Source: a virus
Direction: 5' to 3' (one strand)
IMG/VR virus record: IMGVR_UViG_3300008216_001052
Span: 1-26,250 of that record
Length of the DNA stretch: 26,250 nucleotides
The notes beneath the pieces were generated by a model. It did no database searches, was not told the DNA's origin, and saw nothing but the letters and a program-made list of their open reading frames with translations. Of this stretch, positions 1 through 18,807 are shown in pieces (position 1 is the first letter of the stretch; the number at the start of each line of letters is the position of its first letter). A program made the translations under genes and the position numbers.

Positions 1-3000
1 GCCTTCACCCACGCTTCAATACTAAACGGTCTATCATCAGTTCCATCACCAAAACTCAATACATCCGAATCTGGCACTTCCACATATTCAGCACCATTCA
101 GCGTAAGCACATTCTCGTCTGTATTGGTAAGATAGAATCCTTGCGAATCTCTACCACTTGTAAGACCTTCCGTGAGTACGATTGATGCTGGTGAGCCAGA
201 TGCTGTGCCATTGTTTGAATTAGTGCTTCTATCCGTCCAAGTGGTATCATTATCATTACGCCAATATCCTTGTAGGTCACCAGAACTGGCGTAGTTACCA
301 CTATCAGCAGTAGCATCTAATGGTGTGCCTGAATTGTAGAGAGCAGTTATTTCTGATGCGGTTAGGTGAGTATCCCAAACTGCAAATTCATTAATTATAC
401 CATCAAATGCTGTACCAGATGCCGCCGCTTGCCTTCCAATAGTAAGCCCTTCTCCATAGGAATCTGCTGGGTCTGTGCTGTTTGTTGTATCTGTGGATAT
501 TTCAGTAGCATCAATATATAGTTTACAACTTGCAAGGTCACTTACATCAACAATAAGAGCATAGTGATGCCAGTTTCCATCATCTTGTGCTGAATTATCA
601 ACCCAATATCTGAAACCTGCACCAGCCAAATATAATAAAGGTTTATTCGCAGAAAAGTTTAAATGAAAAGCCTTGGCGGCACCACCGTGACCAAACACAG
701 TATTAGCAGTCGTTTTTGTTGATTTTGACCACCACGAATAAGTCGCATCTCTTGCAACATTATCCGTGCTATTTGTAACACAATCATCCACCCCATCAAA
801 CACCATAGGCTTATTCTGTCTCACAAGTCCTACTTGTGCTATGTCGGTTTCTGCTTTTACCCAGGTAGCACCAGTTATTGTGCCGTGATTCTGATTACCG
901 CTTCCATCATAGTTATAAGCACCAACACCTTCATTCATTGGGAGATATAGTTTTAGATTACTCGATGAAACGCCTGTAGGTAGTATCTGCTCAGGATTGA
1001 GATACATCTCTTGGATTTCAGATTCGGTTAAGGCAGAATTGAATATTTTTATGTTTGAGATTTTGCCAGCAAAGAATAATTGAGCAACATCATTTTGGTC
1101 TCTTGCCCCAATCCAAATTTCATCAGCAGAAGTATATTCAGACATTGTAACGCCAGACATTGATGTAGTCTTAATAGCAGAACCATCTAAATAAGTAATC
1201 ATATTTACTCCATCTGCTATAAAAACAATATGTTTCCATCCAGTTATCCCATCTGAAAGAACAGCCGATGATGCACTTATCACAGAATTTGTATTTGCTT
1301 TAAATACAAACCTTATAGTTCCATTATATAAATCGCCCTGTACCCAATCTGACTCATCTGCATTTCTCGCACCAAATAACACTCGATATTGGGCTTCTTG
1401 TCCATCGGTGGCATTAACCCACATTGATATTGAAAACGAATCTCTGAATGTAGATTGAAATGCTGAACCAGAATCAACATAATCATTAGTCCCATCAAAA
1501 CTAACCGCAGTACCAGATTTGATAGTACCATAGTTAATCGGGTCTACTACTCCGTGTGGTGATGATGTGTAGCCTGTGGTGGTGGTTGCACCGTAGACCA
1601 CTCCAATATTTCCACCACTTGTTACTTCTTTATAAGATATAGTATCGAATAACATTGTACCAGAAGTTGATGTGTTTTTAATTAGTTGAAGTTTCATTGA
1701 AGTTGTTAATGCTATTCCAAATACACTATACTGCACCCAAGAACTGCTTGATGTTCCAGTTGTTACGCCTGTTACTGTTGAGCCATCAAGAAGTTGAAGT
1801 TTAAATTCTTCATTACCAGAAGTTCCACTTTTAACATAGCCAGTTATTCTATATATTTTTCCAGCAGTTACAGTAACTGTTTGATGTGCCTTTTGATTGT
1901 CGCTACCAGTTCTTGTAACTTCTAAACAATTTCCAGATTGACCAGATGAAACGCTGTCAAGCGTAGCATTAGATACACTCCAACCAGAAGTATCAGAATC
2001 AAAACCACCATTACTAATTAATTCACTACCGAATGAATAAGATGAATTAACTTGGTCTAAAATTAAATTATCGCTTTCTACTGCTTCACCCAAATCATAC
2101 CAAGATACCAGATTGGTCTTTAAGCCACTTGACAATCCAGCATACTTCTCGGTGAACATTAATTCTTGGACTTGAGATTGGGTGAGTGCGGATGAGTGGA
2201 TGGATACGTTGGCTAATTTGCCTTCGTACATACTTCCAGTACTATACTGCCCTATTCTTGACTCAAGACCATTTAGGTCTAAATTAGCAGAACTATACGA
2301 ACCAGCAACAGAATCACTTGTTTGAACAGAACCATCTAAATATAGTTTATTATTACTCGCATCACCCCCATCAAAAATTATAGCCATGTGATGCCAAGTA
2401 TTTGCATCTGTAAATACCCATTTATTTCTATAACTATTTGCATCAACATATAGTATTATCTTGTTGCCTTCTATATCTATATCAATTTCACCACTTCCAG
2501 TATAAGCACCTATGCTAAATATCCCGTCATCACTATTTGTGTTTGCTGAATTAAACCAACAGGAAAAAGTAAGTTGATTAGAATAATTATCACCCAATGC
2601 AGTACCCAGACCAGTGCCAAGACTGATATAATCATCAGTACCATCAAAACTGGTACTCCCATCAGCCAACTGCACGGCTTGTTTCGGTTGGGCTACATCT
2701 AAAATTCTCGGTATCTGTGGGGCGTTGTCTCCATATACACTATTGGTAAGTGTACTGCCACTATTCGTACCATCATTACTTCCGTGTGCATCATCGTAGT
2801 ATACATCAAGCCCCCACCAAGACACTAAATTGGTTTTATCTACACTACCCAAATCGCTATACTGCTTATACATTATGCCTTGTACTTCAGAAGCGGATAA
2901 GGCACGACTCCAGATTCCTACGTTACAGATGGAGCCTGTAAACCATTGACTATTACTTGGTTGTCCATTACCAATGATTAAATGTGAATCAGTAGAATTA

Positions 3001-3482
3001 CAAGTTATACTTGAACTTGTATCTTCCAATGAGCCATTAACATATACTCTTATTTTATCACCATCATAAGTAAATGCTACATGATACCAAGTGTTTACAG
3101 CAAATACTGTGGTTCCTGTTGCATTTGTTCCATTTGCATCAAATCGAAGTTTGCAAGTATTAGCAGACTCCTCAAACAATTTAAACTGATTTGCTTTTGT
3201 TGCAGATGCTTCTCCCCAATCAAATATTACTGCATGGTCATCTACTGCTGTTGGATATATCCAAGCACATCCAGACTTTGCAGAAGCACCAGTAATTCCT
3301 ACGTTAGACCCAGATTCTACATAATCATTCGTACCATCAAACGAAGTTGAGCCTGTGGAGGCGTGGGAGATTGGGTTGTCTTGATGCTCCTTGAAGTTGA
3401 AAAACAACTTAAGGTTATCTCTCACATAAGTAACTATGTTAGCAAACGCACCCTTGGCAAGAGATATGCCTAATCCAAGCAT
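1..3482 (-). CDS. LamG-repeat tail fibre/adhesin-like protein (partial, C-terminus off the window)
   Basis: This open frame was read from ATG at 3482 to the left edge without a stop: 1160 full codons plus two bases. At least four complete LamG / concanavalin A-like jelly-roll units and the start of a fifth are visible. Each opens with an FDG-T/V-(N/D)DY motif near residues 46, 276, 660 and 892; the fifth is a diverged NGAEYVEVPD near 1126. Each full unit carries a W-hH-h strand and ends in a helix such as NVGIWSRALSASEVQ. Residues about 482-619 (NGGFDSDTSGW...) look like a CBM4/9-type carbohydrate-binding module inserted between units 2 and 3. LamG folds in phage tail proteins usually bind glycans, so a receptor-binding or decorating fibre is likely (inference). 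It starts 4 bp after the upstream stop, so it is probably translationally coupled. Confidence 0.85.
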   Translation of the reverse strand, partial: MLGLGISLAKGAFANIVTYVRDNLKLFFNFKEHQDNPISHASTGSTSFDGTNDYVESGSNVGITGASAKSGCAWIYPTAVDDHAVIFDWGEASATKANQFKLFEESANTCKLRFDANGTNATGTTVFAVNTWYHVAFTYDGDKIRVYVNGSLEDTSSSITCNSTDSHLIIGNGQPSNSQWFTGSICNVGIWSRALSASEVQGIMYKQYSDLGSVDKTNLVSWWGLDVYYDDAHGSNDGTNSGSTLTNSVYGDNAPQIPRILDVAQPKQAVQLADGSTSFDGTDDYISLGTGLGTALGDNYSNQLTFSCWFNSANTNSDDGIFSIGAYTGSGEIDIDIEGNKIILYVDANSYRNKWVFTDANTWHHMAIIFDGGDASNNKLYLDGSVQTSDSVAGSYSSANLDLNGLESRIGQYSTGSMYEGKLANVSIHSSALTQSQVQELMFTEKYAGLSSGLKTNLVSWYDLGEAVESDNLILDQVNSSYSFGSELISNGGFDSDTSGWSVSNATLDSVSSGQSGNCLEVTRTGSDNQKAHQTVTVTAGKIYRITGYVKSGTSGNEEFKLQLLDGSTVTGVTTGTSSSSWVQYSVFGIALTTSMKLQLIKNTSTSGTMLFDTISYKEVTSGGNIGVVYGATTTTGYTSSPHGVVDPINYGTIKSGTAVSFDGTNDYVDSGSAFQSTFRDSFSISMWVNATDGQEAQYRVLFGARNADESDWVQGDLYNGTIRFVFKANTNSVISASSAVLSDGITGWKHIVFIADGVNMITYLDGSAIKTTSMSGVTMSEYTSADEIWIGARDQNDVAQLFFAGKISNIKIFNSALTESEIQEMYLNPEQILPTGVSSSNLKLYLPMNEGVGAYNYDGSGNQNHGTITGATWVKAETDIAQVGLVRQNKPMVFDGVDDCVTNSTDNVARDATYSWWSKSTKTTANTVFGHGGAAKAFHLNFSANKPLLYLAGAGFRYWVDNSAQDDGNWHHYALIVDVSDLASCKLYIDATEISTDTTNSTDPADSYGEGLTIGRQAAASGTAFDGIINEFAVWDTHLTASEITALYNSGTPLDATADSGNYASSGDLQGYWRNDNDTTWTDRSTNSNNGTASGSPASIVLTEGLTSGRDSQGFYLTNTDENVLTLNGAEYVEVPDSDVLSFGDGTDDRPFSIEAWVK

Positions 3483-8227: not shown

Positions 8228-10402
8228 CTATCCGACAGCAACCGGTGTTTGGGTTTCAGCTTCCGTTTCCCGTTCCATACTCAGTTGATCTCCTAACCGA
8301 GCCTCAAACAATTCCACTGCTTTAGCGGTCTTGTCACTGGATCGTCCCAACTGACGTTTAAATTTTTCTATCTCAACTCGTTTCTTATCATGGACGCTTT
8401 CACGTTCAGACGTTTGCAGATCGCCCTTGATACGTTTTAATTCTTCTTGCAACTGTTGTATCTGTTGTTGCTGTTGACCGATAATAGCCGTTCTTTCCAA
8501 TACACCTTCTGTATCGGCAACTTCTGTTTGTTCCAGTATCTCAACTTGGTCAATAATGCCAGCTTGATAGAGTTGCATATAATATTCAAATCTTGCCCAA
8601 CGATTAGACGGCATCGTAGAACCGCTTACAACAATTAGGTCATAGCTACCAATTGTTACGTCATTTACTCTTCCTAGTATTTCACCAGTGAAATCATCGT
8701 ATATAGGTCTATTCAGAGTAGCTTCGCTTGTTCTTCCGTCTGGTTTCATAAGGCGAATCACCTTTTCATCTGTATAAGTCTGTTGGATCAACTGAACCAC
8801 ACTACGAGCTACCTGATTCAGCATTTCATCTATGTCATCCAACTTTGATTTGATACGTCGTTGGGCGTATTCATCAACGGCAACAGTTCCCTTGTATGTC
8901 TGCGGAGCAGCACTAGGGTCACCCTGAGATAGTGGGTGTATGCCTAAAATGTGATAGATACTTGATTTCGCATCTTCTTTATTCTTATATAATTCATTTG
9001 GCAGTGGAATCGGACCCGCTACAATAGGTTGTCCTAATTCAGGGTCATATTCGATTACACCAGTTCCAGCTCTAGACCATTCTTCTTCTAATTGTTTTCT
9101 ATCCATAGACCCACGTGGTATAAGTAGCTTTGTGTTTGTGGAACTGGATGCATGGGCTATAATGAGAGATGTTAGCTTATTGATATATTCCTGTATAGGC
9201 TTTACGAAGCGTACATCACTCATAGGGTAAGGATTTCTATTATGCCTATTCATTAGCGGAACAATTGGATAGTTATCTATATCCATAATTGATTGTTCTA
9301 CCATTAAACCGCCAATAGACATTATTCGCTGAATCCTATCAACCATTACTTCATTTAAGACGATAACGCCTTCTTCTATCATAGTCTCATTAGTTACAGG
9401 AGTAATGCGAGTTGTAGTACCCGGTATTGACCCCTCATGTTCTTCCCCTGGCATAATTGTAGGTTGCCCAGTCGCAGGGTCAGGCATCATGTGATATACA
9501 CCGCCTGTGGACTCATATATCTGTAATAACTCCATAACTGCTTTATCGTCAGTTACGGGCTGTACACCTTGAGCAGTTTCCATAAATACTGCAGGTTCTT
9601 CAGCGAACTCATTAAATCCGTCTTCATTCATAATATTCTCTTCACCAGTAAGTGAATCAAGAATATGGAAGTATGGTAATTTTACTTTTTCATATCTATC
9701 TATTATTTCATAATGTCTGTTATTGCCATCATTGTCTTCAGTGGGGCCGACTTGCTGATCTTCTGATCCATCCCTAGATGTGGCGGGATACCTGTTATTA
9801 CTTGAGCAAGTCATCATATCGTCTATTTTATCAACCACAGACGGAAATACAGTTTTAATCTGCTCTTCTGTAATTCGTTTAGCCACAATCATACAGGCAG
9901 AGTCCCTAGCGAAAGGGTCTTTGCTATTGGGGTCAAGATATAAATCAAGAGGGTCAATATTCTTAATCTTGATTTCACCTCTCCCAAAGTCCGCCATACC
10001 ATCCACATAGGTTTGTAAGACTCCCATACCCTTTACATAGTAATCATCCACCACTTGTTTCAACTCTACGTTTCCATTAGATATATCCCATATATAAGCC
10101 ATTATATCTGAAAAGAGCCTACCGACCTTATTATCGGAGTCATCCCTGCCTGCTGATTGAAATTTTGGTTTATTTGCGGTCAGTAGTGATTTTGCCTGTT
10201 CTACTGCCGGATATATGATATTGTCCACAATGGGGACTTGAGACCGTTTGGCAAGTACGTTTTTATGTTCCGTCTTCCATTGCTGGTTATTACGGAACTC
10301 ATCGTCTTCCATGGCTTGTGTTGCCCATGTTGCCCTACCTTCGTGGTAGTTATCTAATAGGCGTTCTGATTTGGCTACTTCTGGGTGTTTTTCGTGTGGC
10401 AT
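8228..10402 (-). CDS. Portal protein, P22-like, 724 aa
   Basis: The N-terminal region (WATQAMEDDEFRNNQQW...RSQVPIVDNIIYPAVEQAKSLL) and the following VDDYYVKGMGVLQTYVD and IDPLDLYLDPNSKDPFARDS segments match the large P22-type portal family. In that family the DP-h-xxYxDP motif recurs in the wing/stem region. Residues about 640-710 form a Gln-rich coiled coil that could be the barrel-like C-terminal extension. The portal forms the dodecameric DNA gate that docks the terminase and adaptor. The length of 724 aa agrees with P22 gp1. No clear Shine-Dalgarno precedes the ATG, which is odd for so highly needed a protein. Confidence 0.88.
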   Translation of the reverse strand: MPHEKHPEVAKSERLLDNYHEGRATWATQAMEDDEFRNNQQWKTEHKNVLAKRSQVPIVDNIIYPAVEQAKSLLTANKPKFQSAGRDDSDNKVGRLFSDIMAYIWDISNGNVELKQVVDDYYVKGMGVLQTYVDGMADFGRGEIKIKNIDPLDLYLDPNSKDPFARDSACMIVAKRITEEQIKTVFPSVVDKIDDMMTCSSNNRYPATSRDGSEDQQVGPTEDNDGNNRHYEIIDRYEKVKLPYFHILDSLTGEENIMNEDGFNEFAEEPAVFMETAQGVQPVTDDKAVMELLQIYESTGGVYHMMPDPATGQPTIMPGEEHEGSIPGTTTRITPVTNETMIEEGVIVLNEVMVDRIQRIMSIGGLMVEQSIMDIDNYPIVPLMNRHNRNPYPMSDVRFVKPIQEYINKLTSLIIAHASSSTNTKLLIPRGSMDRKQLEEEWSRAGTGVIEYDPELGQPIVAGPIPLPNELYKNKEDAKSSIYHILGIHPLSQGDPSAAPQTYKGTVAVDEYAQRRIKSKLDDIDEMLNQVARSVVQLIQQTYTDEKVIRLMKPDGRTSEATLNRPIYDDFTGEILGRVNDVTIGSYDLIVVSGSTMPSNRWARFEYYMQLYQAGIIDQVEILEQTEVADTEGVLERTAIIGQQQQQIQQLQEELKRIKGDLQTSERESVHDKKRVEIEKFKRQLGRSSDKTAKAVELFEARLGDQLSMERETEAETQTPVAVG

Positions 10403-13943: not shown

Positions 13944-13970
13944 AAACCCTGCGAATAAAAACGTGCATAT

Positions 13971-13992
13971 TGGACATTAATGTAAAGTATGC
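13971..13992 (+). promoter_or_regulatory. Promoter-like motif shared with 18454-18475
   Basis: TGGACA-N5-TGTA-A-AGTATGC matches 19 of 22 positions of the segment at 18454-18475. Both copies end 20-22 bp before a start codon that has its own RBS. A classical -35 at 17 bp from TATGCG is absent here, so the conserved element could be a phage-specific promoter or an activator site. It directly follows a terminator, the expected order for a new transcription unit. Confidence 0.5.
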
Positions 13993-14014: not shown

Positions 14015-14152
14015 ATGATTTGGTTATTAAAACAAAACAGTAATTACTGGCACTTTGCTACTATATTTGAAAGTGTCATAGAAGTACGGAAATCTGAATA
14101 CCCTAACCTATTTGAAGCAATGGCGAGAGCCCGTGACAAGGCATTTGGGTAA
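14015..14152 (+). CDS. Small early protein, 45 aa
   Basis: The start at 14015 is chosen over an upstream ATG at 13970 because AAGGAG lies 7 bases before it and the longer version would begin inside the promoter-like motif. The protein reads MIWLLKQNSNYWHFATIFES then VIEVRKSEYPNLFEAMARARDKAFG: an aromatic N-terminus followed by a helix. The function is unknown. It is coupled to the next ORF by TAATG. Confidence 0.6.
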   Translation: MIWLLKQNSNYWHFATIFESVIEVRKSEYPNLFEAMARARDKAFG

Positions 14153-15738: not shown

Positions 15739-15882
15739 ATGAGTAAGAATGAAAAAGTAAAATACAAGTGTTATTGTGGTAAAATGAAATCTCCATTTGC
15801 AATGGGACCAATAGTCGGGACTTGTCGTTACTGTTTAACAGAGTGTGATACATTAATTAAAAAACAAAAAGGAAACGAATGA
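15739..15882 (+). CDS. Small zinc-ribbon protein, 47 aa
   Basis: The frame from ATG 15739 (AAGGAG about 10 bases upstream) contains CYC (C11, C13) and CRYC (C29, C32) separated by 15 residues, a spacing suited to one zinc-binding ribbon. The rest is Lys-rich. The stop overlaps the ParB-like start by 4 bp (ATGA), so the two are translationally coupled and may act together. Binding of nucleic acid or of the ParB-like protein is inference. Confidence 0.65.
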   Translation: MSKNEKVKYKCYCGKMKSPFAMGPIVGTCRYCLTECDTLIKKQKGNE

Positions 15883-17579
15883 ACGTACCTATTAATGACA
15901 TTCGCCTACACGGAAATGTTAGAAGTAAAATAGATAAAAAGGAAGACTCTTTTAAAGAGTTAGTAAAGGATATTGACCAGAATGGTTTAATTCAGCCGTT
16001 GGTTGTATATCGTGTAGATGACCATTACTATTTAATTGCAGGACACAGACGTTTGGAAGCGTTAAAAGAACTGGCATTAGATAAAGCAGCCATCTATGAA
16101 AGACCAGAACCTAATGGTGACTTTACTCAACTACAAGTATCTGAAAACACTATGAGAAAAGACTTGACTCTCTATGAAGAGATAATGGCTTTTAAATCAA
16201 TGGTTGATACTAAAATGACTATTACTGAAGTAGCTGACAAGTTCGGTCATTCACGTAATTATGTTATCCGTAGAATTGAATTTGGCAATCTAATACCCGC
16301 ATTATTAAAACCTGAAACATTTGATGATGCACCAGATCGTTTTCTTTCACATTTGCGAGACTTTGCTAAACATCATAAAAGTCTACAGAAAGAGGCATTG
16401 GAGTGGGTTGCAAAAGAAAATAAATGTACAGTAAAAGAATATTGTACTGAACATTTTATTGATAAATCCTATCCAGTTCATTTATTTGGGTATCCTGGAC
16501 TAACTTCAAATAAGTTACCAAGAGAAGAAGTAGTAACCTTTTGTGATACTAATGTTAAAACAGATAAATACGGTGATACACCGGAAGAACGATTCGTAAA
16601 ACTACAGAAAGAGTATGGATATAAGGTTAAAACCAATCCAGTTCTTTTCCAAGATGAAGAGTTTAATGACTATTGTGCAGATATGGACTTTATTAAGTTT
16701 ATCTGGACAGAAGTTTATCCCGAAGAAACACATATTAAATTCAATAAATTGAAAATTGATAAAGATATGTATAGCTGGAATGATGGATGTAGTCGTGCCA
16801 TAATGCCTAAGCTTCTGAGGGCTTTGTATCTCAAAACTCCTTCCATTATTACTTGGAACGGTAAATGGGATGAACCAGTTGTTAAAGTAGCAAGTGGCAG
16901 TAAGTCATCAGCTTCATCAAAAGATAAGTCTGATAAACCAGTACGGGATAAATACTATCGTCAAACTAAGAAGTTCGGTAGAATTTTGTCTGCTGGTTAT
17001 TTAGCTTATCTTAAGAATCGAATCTATGTTTCTCGAAAGAAAGGTTGTATGCCATTGTATAATGCTGGCAATGCATCAAATATCATAGAAGAATGGACAG
17101 TAACACAAGGTTTAACTTTAAACCAAATTGATGTTCCCGACCATTTGAATGGTTACAATCTCGATAGAATACGCAAATTACTTGACAAAGATTATGCTTC
17201 AAGTGATTTAGCGAAGGCTATTTACAAAGCATTTGTAATAGAGTCTATGAATCAAGCATCATTCAAGAGTTTAAACAAACTTGCCAGAAAGTTAACAAAG
17301 CATCATTCGATAACTGCTGTAATGACTTTAAAGGAGTGGTTTAAGCAAGAATGGGATTCTAAAGATTCTGATGAGTTTAAACTTAATGTACTTAGTTGTT
17401 TCTCCTTGGCTAATCTAAATACAATATCTAAAGGTAAGAAAATTGATATTGTAGAGTATGCTATACAAAAAAACACTCCATTCCCCTTCATGAGCATTTT
17501 CTCTAGTAAGGAAGCAGAGTGGGATACCTTGTCCTTAAAACATTGTTACTTGGACAAGAATGCACTGTATAGTGCTTAA
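15879..17579 (+). CDS. ParB-like protein with long C-terminal extension, 566 aa
   Basis: Residues 1-75 form a ParB/Spo0J N-terminal domain: IDQNGLIQPLVVYRVDDHYY then LIAGHRRLEALKEL, with the GHRR motif at 55-58. SENTMRKDLTLYEE (88-101) matches the second nucleotide-binding motif of ParB CTPases. Residues 112-135 (MTITEVADKFGHSRNYVIRR) form the HTH. A Ser/Lys linker near 338-353 separates a further 200 aa part with no recognised fold. ParB proteins bind a centromere-like site and slide as CTP clamps; phage homologues also act in transcription or as nucleases. No ParA is encoded nearby. A terminator follows. Confidence 0.85.
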   Translation: MNVPINDIRLHGNVRSKIDKKEDSFKELVKDIDQNGLIQPLVVYRVDDHYYLIAGHRRLEALKELALDKAAIYERPEPNGDFTQLQVSENTMRKDLTLYEEIMAFKSMVDTKMTITEVADKFGHSRNYVIRRIEFGNLIPALLKPETFDDAPDRFLSHLRDFAKHHKSLQKEALEWVAKENKCTVKEYCTEHFIDKSYPVHLFGYPGLTSNKLPREEVVTFCDTNVKTDKYGDTPEERFVKLQKEYGYKVKTNPVLFQDEEFNDYCADMDFIKFIWTEVYPEETHIKFNKLKIDKDMYSWNDGCSRAIMPKLLRALYLKTPSIITWNGKWDEPVVKVASGSKSSASSKDKSDKPVRDKYYRQTKKFGRILSAGYLAYLKNRIYVSRKKGCMPLYNAGNASNIIEEWTVTQGLTLNQIDVPDHLNGYNLDRIRKLLDKDYASSDLAKAIYKAFVIESMNQASFKSLNKLARKLTKHHSITAVMTLKEWFKQEWDSKDSDEFKLNVLSCFSLANLNTISKGKKIDIVEYAIQKNTPFPFMSIFSSKEAEWDTLSLKHCYLDKNALYSA

Positions 17580-17640: not shown

Positions 17641-17679
17641 TATATGAAACTGCAGAACTGCAGTAGGGTTTACTCCAAA

Positions 17680-18381
17680 CTATAAATCCGGGCATCCTTT
17701 TTTCACACAAGTTAATAATCCAACTGAAAATACATTTCCATTCACTCCAAACTCTTGTGCCTGGATGTTCATCATAGAATATTTTCCATTAGATTTTAAA
17801 ACACGCAAAGTGATGTCTCTCGTTTTTTTGTTGATTTCTTGAATAGCATCATCGTGATCGTCGGGATGAATAAACTCTAAAAGACTTTTTCCAAGCATCT
17901 CATCTTCATTAAACCCAAGAATTTTACATAATGCTGGATTCACATTTCTTAAGATTCCTTTACGGGTGCAACTCATCGGCTTATCTGTTTTGTAGAAAAC
18001 CCAATTCCACCGCTTAGATGCGTCACTCAGCATATCACTAACTTCATCTAATGTTTGTGGTTTGTTTTTTGGCTTGTGTTTAATTAAAGCATTTTTTTCA
18101 GCAAGCTCTTTTTCTAAGTATGTAATCTTATCTTTTTGCAAACCTACTATGTATTCAACGTCTACGTTCATTGGACTATCCTTTTCAGTTAAATTAATAT
18201 TGCCTACAATTTGAATTTCTTCGCTATAAACATTTATTAATTTATCGAGATTGCGATTCCTAACGGGCGATCCATTAAGCCAATTATACAATGTTGAGCG
18301 ACTGATTCCTGATTTTTTTGATATGGTTGTTAAAGGAATATCTGTTTTCTTCAACCAATTTATTATTTCTGTTTTATACAT
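17680..18381 (-). CDS. HTH-coiled coil-PAS regulator, repressor-like, 233 aa
   Basis: Residues 17-36 (TTISKKSGISRSTLYNWLNG) form a clear helix-turn-helix of the XRE/Cro type. Residues 74-102 (VEYIVGLQKDKITYLEKELA...) form a coiled coil suited to dimerisation. Residues 120-228 form a PAS domain: NVNPALCKILGFNEDEMLGK then SLLEFIHPDD and ITLRVLKSNGKYSMMNIQAQ. Phage repressors usually end in an S24 peptidase or an oligomerisation domain; a PAS sensor is unusual. PAS domains bind small ligands or cofactors or sense redox, and two Cys near the end (C225, C230) are notable. The gene is divergent from the rightward operon, the layout of an immunity region. Confidence 0.85.
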   Translation of the reverse strand: MYKTEIINWLKKTDIPLTTISKKSGISRSTLYNWLNGSPVRNRNLDKLINVYSEEIQIVGNINLTEKDSPMNVDVEYIVGLQKDKITYLEKELAEKNALIKHKPKNKPQTLDEVSDMLSDASKRWNWVFYKTDKPMSCTRKGILRNVNPALCKILGFNEDEMLGKSLLEFIHPDDHDDAIQEINKKTRDITLRVLKSNGKYSMMNIQAQEFGVNGNVFSVGLLTCVKKGCPDL

Positions 18382-18407
18382 ACTCCATACCCCATGAGAG
18401 TTGATTA

Positions 18408-18437
18408 ATTATACAAATAAAACTACAAACATTACAA
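18408..18437 (-). promoter_or_regulatory. Promoter of the HTH-PAS gene
   Basis: On the minus strand TTGTAA (18432-18437) and a perfect TATAAT (18408-18413) are 18 bp apart. The expected transcript would have a short leader before the ATG at 18381. This is a sigma70-type promoter by sequence only. Confidence 0.6.
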
Positions 18438-18447
18438 ATATTTAATT

Positions 18448-18476
18448 TTGTACTGGACAATTATGTACAGTATGCT
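18448..18476 (+). promoter_or_regulatory. Rightward promoter covered by a 22 bp dyad operator
   Basis: TTGTAC (18448-18453) and TATGCT (18471-18476) with 17 bp between could serve as -35 and -10. The dyad TACTGGACA-ATTA-TGTACAGTA (18451-18472) matches its own complement at 8 of 9 positions per arm and covers most of the promoter. It has the same length and outer half-sites (TACTG, CAGTA) as palindrome B at 13013-13034. Also, 18454-18475 is shared with 13971-13992. Binding here would block the DNA-metabolism operon. Confidence 0.6.
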
Positions 18477-18495: not shown

Positions 18496-18807
18496 ATGTT
18501 AATAAAGGATGCGTTAAATTTAGAAACTAGAAACAAACTTATAGAGTTTGGAATGTGGTGCAATGCCACTGAAGTAGACCTACAGCGCAAACTCATCAAA
18601 GGCAAAACTTACGCAGGAGAAATCATCAAAATACGGATGATGACTAAGCGAGAATTGTCTGGATATTTAAGAGATATAAATAGCAACAAAGCAGTAAAGA
18701 TTGCTAGAACAATAAAAGACCCATATATGTACAGGCAGTTTGACATCAAAATACGAACTCAAATAGAACTGTACAGTTATGCGTATAATAGAATGATAAC
18801 TCTATAA
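18496..18807 (+). CDS. First gene of the rightward operon, 103 aa, unknown
   Basis: The ATG at 18496 has an excellent AAAGGGAGG 4-5 bases upstream; a longer frame starting with TTG at 18448 would begin inside the operator and is rejected. The protein is mixed and basic (MLIKDALNLETRNKLIEFGM then WCNATEVDLQRKLIKGKTYAGEIIKIRMMTKREL...). Its place opposite the repressor-like gene is that of a Cro-like or antirepressor gene, but no convincing HTH is seen, so the function is left open. Confidence 0.7.
   Translation: MLIKDALNLETRNKLIEFGMWCNATEVDLQRKLIKGKTYAGEIIKIRMMTKRELSGYLRDINSNKAVKIARTIKDPYMYRQFDIKIRTQIELYSYAYNRMITL

Follow-up and report, generated by a model that had tools for sequence, protein, structure and literature searches.

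A candidate lysogeny repressor ending in a PAS domain, with an exchangeable C-terminal half, in a probable temperate phage most likely of Neomarinimicrobiota

Lambda-type repressors respond to DNA damage. The CI/Cro-type repressors of the S24 kind have an N-terminal helix-turn-helix (HTH), a site between divergent early genes, a dyad at the promoters and an integrase in the same phage, and the 233-aa protein described here resembles them in each of these features. In contrast to them, it ends in a PAS domain; none of its 20 Pfam matches at E ≤ 1 is to the S24 family, and it lacks the peptidase domain of the autoproteolytic S24/LexA-type repressors. A PAS-bearing phage regulator has been described in vibriophage VP882, where VqmA_phage, a phage receptor for DPO, turns on qtip, and the qtip product in turn sequesters the repressor of the phage (PMC8284805). 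VqmA_phage is reported as a phage-encoded, PAS-bearing DNA-binding protein that serves the lysis-lysogeny decision (PMC8284805, PMC12802170), a combination that we predict here as well. However, according to the same report, VqmA has its PAS domain first and its DNA-binding domain last, and VqmA_phage works on top of a separate repressor (PMC8284805), whereas our protein does not follow this order with an N-terminal PAS domain but has the HTH first, and it stands in the repressor's place. Prophage-inducing modules that act without DNA damage have been reported as well (PMC10432266). Among the titles and opening abstract lines listed from the open-access literature, we found no PAS-bearing phage repressor.

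The protein is encoded at 17680..18381 on the minus strand of the window, by which we mean the whole analysed stretch of 26,250 nucleotides. The gene starts with ATG, and Pfam and NCBIfam matches together with an AlphaFold2 model give the order HTH, long helix, PAS domain; we propose it as a lysogeny repressor. A first-pass annotation of the window had outlined the feature as 17680-18476, which is right for the gene itself, but the end at 18476 takes in intergenic DNA, the gene ending at 18381. The HTH at residues 17-36 (18274..18333, minus strand), which that annotation had read by inspection as being of the XRE (Cro/CI) type, corresponds to model helices 17-24 and 28-35 and to Pfam matches just below their cut-offs: HTH_3, the top HTH match, had an E value of 1.3e-4 and 22.4 bits (cut-off 23), and HTH_26 scored 20.0 bits (cut-off 22), a model that the related protein L025 passes with 27.9 bits. 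A coiled coil proposed for residues 74-102 matches, within a few residues, a single model helix at 75-101 (18079..18159, minus strand), a probable coiled coil that may join two monomers. The PAS domain, originally placed at 120-228, scores above the curated cut-offs of three Pfam models (PF00989, 34.7 bits against 22.6; PF08447, 34.3 against 25.6; PF13426, 33.8 against 27) and of NCBIfam TIGR00229 (38.8 against 22.9), so that the protein belongs to the PAS domain superfamily by sequence profile. The domain possibly begins slightly earlier (~111-113), and we place it at about residues 113-228 (17698..18045, minus strand).

The AlphaFold2 model was built on a 17-row alignment holding the window protein and its relative L129 in full and 15 others as N-terminal pieces. 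It comprises a helical N-terminal domain, the helix 75-101 and an alpha/beta domain at ~111-226, with mean pLDDT per 10-residue block of 89-97 for residues 1-50 and only 47-85 for 111-230. Although confidence in the C-terminal region is thus modest, its predicted fold is that of a PAS domain: a fold search of the PDB returned 92 matches at E ≤ 0.001, and all 50 of those listed contain PAS, while a second structure aligner superposed the model on PAS domains with Z up to 11.0 (rmsd 3.0, 113 residues aligned). A viral fold library gave eight matches at E ≤ 0.001, some of them named as PAS domains in uncultured phages. A nameless 245-aa viral protein, A0A516M3Q0, was matched at E 7.5e-6, aligning over 271 columns with an rmsd of 18, and may be a precedent for the HTH-PAS architecture. 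A fold match in Cellulophaga phage phi19:1, taken as gp108 by protein length, was rejected; it has no Pfam match at E ≤ 0.1 and lies beside late genes.

LOV photoreceptors are marked by a flavin-binding cysteine motif. By eye, this motif is absent from the 233-aa sequence, and light sensing is therefore not favoured. We recognised no cofactor motif by eye in the PAS protein, and haem-PAS entries occur among its PDB fold matches, which is uninformative on the cofactor; haem, flavin, redox state and metabolites are all possible signals. Cysteines C138, C152, C225 and C230 are common to L129, and a redox role for them is speculation.

Relatives were obtained only through terminase and HTH-alignment searches. 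The terminase search of IMG/VR yielded 387 relatives, 80 of which were kept, and nine of these 80, not counting the same phage, encode a repressor homolog. Searching with an alignment of ten HTH halves gave 22 loci, one of them that of the window phage, and 21 of the 22 encode a full-length protein in the order HTH, linker, C-terminal domain. The exception, L144, has a frame at 2977-3204 (plus strand) that stops at 75 aa, while the near-identical L141 is full-length; the gene is broken or the assembly is in error. The same architecture thus recurs in related phages as far as domain order goes, but among the loci of the HTH search a canonical PAS domain is found only in L129, which is 76% identical in the PAS domain and 54% in the HTH. 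A different C-terminal domain, hereafter the common type, is shared by 19 proteins, namely those of 18 of the 22 loci and L088 (alignment A7). L139 is divergent and was assigned to neither set.

Among pairs of proteins with 50-66% identity between their HTH halves, the C-termini of the common type were recognisably alike in 64 of 64 cases (z > 5, median 20), whereas canonical PAS and common-type domains in the same HTH range exceeded z 5 in one of 25 pairs, with a median of -0.2 that equals background; L144 with its 75-aa frame, L025 and L139 were left out of these comparisons. A single one of 38 cross pairs (window protein and L130, z 6.7) hints at remote kinship of the two C-terminal kinds, and a profile-profile comparison between them gave a probability of 2.7%. 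The pair z-scores and this low profile-comparison probability both speak against gradual drift from one kind to the other. The comparisons indicate that the group has retained its DNA-binding half and exchanged its sensor half, most members found bearing the common-type domain.

PAS Pfam models did not match any of the eight common-type members scanned (E ≤ 0.1). An AlphaFold2 model of the common-type protein L131, built on a 20-row alignment with L139 among the rows, nevertheless shows strands and helices in the order typical of PAS, and from residue 111 onward 9 of 14 block means exceed 90 pLDDT. In Foldseek, PAS entries ranked first for this model but weakly, the best E value being 7.4e-3 and none reaching 0.001; VIA-align gave a best Z of 8.6 (rmsd 2.7, 101 aligned) to a PAS/PAC sensor, on a scale where the tool calls Z 7-8 common. 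Both kinds of C-terminal domain are probably PAS folds, the common one having passed beyond sequence recognition, as far as the predicted structures go.

Outside this family, the whole protein had only three matches among 50,697 phage records, all in the HTH part at E 0.7-0.9, and the proteins of L025 and L131 had none in the same records. A search of viral_contigs with the 233-aa protein and with alignment A2 recovered the same phage only, and L025 recovered nothing. Plasmids gave 30 records, in none of which the match reached 80% of the query; those listed, 15 in number, lie in the PAS part or run from residue 87.

A longer record of the same phage (45,891 bases) aligns with window positions 955-26250 at 99.98%, record positions being window positions minus 954. 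Past the window's end it encodes a 295-aa tyrosine recombinase (26880-27767, minus strand) with a profile score above the cut-off. The first-pass remark that the window holds no integrase is true of the window, but the longer copy of the phage does hold one. Just upstream of the integrase start we recognised by eye a tRNA-Pro(CGG) 3' half, 47 bp long. Exact copies of it are present in 13 genome contigs, of which 11 are assigned to Bacteroidota or Chlorobiota and two to Candidatus Neomarinimicrobiota. Each of the 13 copies follows what looks by eye like a tRNA 5' half, and identity with the phage ends at the 5' edge of the copy, while at the 3' end it extends 0 to 3 further bases. Such a pattern is typical of an attP core, and the tRNA half is likely to be one. 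With an integrase and an attP-like tRNA half in its longer copy, this is very probably a temperate phage. Outside the window, a single ORF of 2,999 aa (L006, 4077-13076, minus strand) lies in the late region of that copy.

With 11 of 13 matches labelled Bacteroidota or Chlorobiota, the att core alone is indecisive for the host. Among 245 Neomarinimicrobiota genomes, 53 match the 233-aa protein at E ≤ 0.001, mostly through the PAS part of long proteins. One that stands out is L025/L037, a prophage-like protein of a Neomarinimicrobiota genome with the order HTH, linker, PAS-like domain (26% identity to the window protein over 225 aligned columns); its gene lies immediately ahead of that for a tyrosine integrase and diverges from a small HTH gene. 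Unlike in the window, the PAS match of L025 is weak and below the cut-off (PAS_8, E 0.0094), and there is no operator copy; the element shares a nuclease-like protein, 48% identical, with the window phage. A profile of the common type matched 13 of 245 Neomarinimicrobiota genomes against one of 395 Bacteroidota genomes, the latter in the HTH only (p 3e-5), and seven of the 13 matches cover the common-type C-terminal domain. The Neomarinimicrobiota regulators L160-L164, L166 and L167 share this domain with most of the phage relatives, five of the seven in the order HTH, linker, domain. They differ from the window protein in having no canonical PAS domain and a chromosomal-looking setting, and two of them (L163, 5190-6305, and L164, 4684-5769, both minus strand) are receiver-LuxR response regulators ending in the common-type domain. 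In these two, an unnamed, sensor-like domain without a Pfam match is part of host signalling. The genes around the eight best Neomarinimicrobiota loci look chromosomal by eye, and searches with 11 further proteins of the phage gave no match near them; one of these contigs (G132 C87) carries an integrase-like frame elsewhere.

A Bacteroidota host was considered and rejected for the window protein: 13 of 395 genomes match (E ≤ 1e-7), none of the 14 matches listed reaches the HTH, and the shortest open frame among them, L043, is by eye the PAS start of a longer kinase-like protein. Shine-Dalgarno counts were 16/32 for the phage, 2/16 and 5/16 for Neomarinimicrobiota, and 8/53 and 0/10 for Bacteroidota. 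The L025/L037 element, the 13/245 against 1/395 genomes and the response regulators with the common-type domain together make Neomarinimicrobiota the most likely host phylum, and indicate, at the level of sequence, that phage repressors and regulators of that phylum share one sensor-domain family. On a Neomarinimicrobiota contig, L024 (123-701, plus strand) is a PAS piece with 58% identity in the PAS region and most of the HTH missing, which by eye precedes a polysaccharide-type gene; it could be a prophage remnant or a domesticated sensor.

The exchange of C-terminal domains bears on what the PAS domain does. In a lysogeny repressor it might be a dimerisation module only, with induction left to an antirepressor or another host route. 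The PAS domain of VqmA is reported to be responsible for dimerisation (PMC8284805), and the lack of a cofactor motif recognisable by eye would fit the same role. Replacement of the C-terminal half between proteins with similar HTH halves suits a sensory role better, however, as does the common-type domain at the end of host receiver-LuxR response regulators; neither amounts to proof, and we regard a purely dimerising PAS domain as possible but rather unlikely.

The first-pass annotation had also proposed a divergent operator, a dyad over the opposing promoter, and a dyad of this kind is present and shared by several relatives. This candidate operator, O1 (18451..18472), is a 22-bp element identified by pattern search and by recurrence in relatives; it reads TACTGGACA-ATTA-TGTACAGTA, with 9-bp arms and one mismatch, and sits at the divergent early promoter. 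A possible early promoter, TTGTAC - 17 - TATGCT (18448..18476, plus strand), was found by eye and overlaps O1; its first hexamer agrees at just 3 of 6 positions and it is missing from the computed promoter list. The divergent first gene of the replication-side operon (18496..18807, plus strand) encodes 103 aa of no known family and has homologs in many relatives. On the repressor side, TTGTAA - 18 - TATAAT (18408..18437, minus strand) is promoter-like with 10 of 12 matches, in an intergenic region where promoter-like sites are not enriched (6 found against 7.3 expected). A DNA hairpin there was rejected, the single-strand fold of the whole intergenic region being unremarkable (z -1.07).

Allowing three mismatches, the dyad pattern occurs in the window at two places, each on both strands (four rows; mean of 100 shuffles 0.05), and over 46.8 kb a symmetric consensus, searched with up to 3 mismatches in 18 positions, finds only O1 and one other site (60 shuffles averaged 0.0). 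This second operator-like site, TATTGGACATTAATGTAAAGTA (13968..13989), is 25 bp away from the start codon of a 45-aa gene downstream of it (14015..14152, plus strand; ATG at 14015). It is not conserved in 16 relative loci and was rejected as a general feature of the group. A ParB-like gene (15879..17579, plus strand) precedes the repressor gene, and between the two lies a 16-bp palindrome, ACTGCAGAACTGCAGT (17649-17664), that is kept in the repressor-less relative L058; that it is the partition site of the ParB-like protein is a guess.

With up to 3 mismatches allowed in 20 positions, the dyad recurs upstream of 10 of 24 family genes, as opposed to none of 569 other 250-nt blocks in the ~3 kb around, counts that describe conservation and are no independent test, the consensus having been taken from the same upstream regions. 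Leaving out a near-duplicate and the distant L025, it is present in 9 of 22 upstream regions. The remaining 14 of 24 regions, that of L129 with the same PAS domain included, have no site at up to three mismatches, while the common-type locus L142 has an upstream dyad almost identical to O1. Since L142 keeps the dyad and L129 is without it, the type of dyad goes with the HTH and not with the sensor. The closest copies accompany HTHs that read SRSTLY (window, L135, L140-L144). Longer loci have sites within three mismatches elsewhere too, in L058 (11527) and L064 (9913); the latter, at 9913-9936 with three mismatches, lies ~65 bp before the terminase gene of that relative, a different position from that of the second site in the window.

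An integrase was found in 17 of 23 repressor-bearing records, the six others spanning 7.6 to 29.6 kb, and in none of 12 repressor-less terminase relatives. In records of at least 29 kb, an integrase is present in 16 of the 17 that carry the repressor and in 0 of the 10 that do not (Fisher p 1.3e-6), although such p-values overstate independence because the records are fragments and share ancestry. The 12 include all ten repressor-less loci among the 80 kept whose record is at least 29 kb; G660, examined along with them, bears a repressor and was counted accordingly. The repressor-less relative L058 (2584-4730; from a 35.7-kb record) has no integrase either, and its ParB-like gene lies right next to the dyad region and the divergent gene, the latter with 70% identity. 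Its dyad is still symmetric, which points to recent loss of the repressor or to another binder, and L058 may represent a recent change from temperate to lytic life. That the protein controls lysis and lysogeny had at first been only an inference; the integrase and attP-like site, the co-occurrence, the dyad in several relatives and the gene-less L058 now carry it beyond that.

The symmetric dyad that L058 keeps at the same place without a repressor raises a different reading, in which the dyad is the target of another factor, perhaps a LexA-like regulator of the host or a different protein of the phage, while the HTH-PAS protein has its site of action elsewhere. The arms do resemble the E. coli LexA box, but the spacing CTGK-N10-MCAG is 2 bp longer than in that box. 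The position of the site just upstream of family genes (10/24 regions against 0/569 blocks) and the association of its closest copies with SRSTLY HTHs argue against a foreign binder as well, and we consider it improbable. A role as a positive regulator instead of the repressor, for instance as an activator of lytic or lysogenic genes, is likewise improbable. VqmA_phage provides an example of a phage regulator with a PAS domain that switches on an antirepressor gene (PMC8284805), and a site ~60 bp upstream of the gene's own expected start would suit activation. Against this, O1 overlaps the early promoter read by eye, 30 small, mostly early ORFs gave no further HTH match, and relatives without an integrase are also without the gene.

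We therefore return to a CI-like lysogeny repressor of a temperate phage with a host most likely in Neomarinimicrobiota, bound to its dyad as a dimer and released by a signal at the PAS domain, which we regard as the likely explanation as a whole. Within it, the identity as a repressor is well supported by the comparative evidence and the sensing role of the PAS domain is plausible. Two monomers would be joined via the long helix, and the HTHs of the dimer would occupy O1 between the divergent promoters. This would shut off the replication-side operon and perhaps, through the second site, the early group near 14015 too. O1 lies ~60 bp upstream of the expected start of the repressor's transcript, from where a bound dimer could support or limit expression of its own gene. 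With a PAS domain in place of the self-cleaving S24 domain, release would come from a signal felt by PAS, be it a ligand, the state of a cofactor or a partner, instead of from RecA-driven self-cleavage.

VqmA_phage is a separate activator, whereas the protein proposed here would be a repressor with a replaceable PAS-fold sensor built into it. The system is compact, consisting of one 233-aa protein and one 22-bp site, and nature supplies variants in which a different sensor goes with an almost identical site, as well as a relative without the gene. More tentatively, and with somewhat less than even confidence, we suggest that the repressor in this clade of marine temperate phages is a receptor for the environment or the state of the host, with an exchangeable sensor whose commoner form is shared with one- and two-component regulators of the host, so that the prophage would listen to a host signal and not to DNA damage. 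If this is true, phages of a little-cultured ocean phylum would show how prophage induction can be coupled to metabolism or to the state of the host while bypassing the SOS response.
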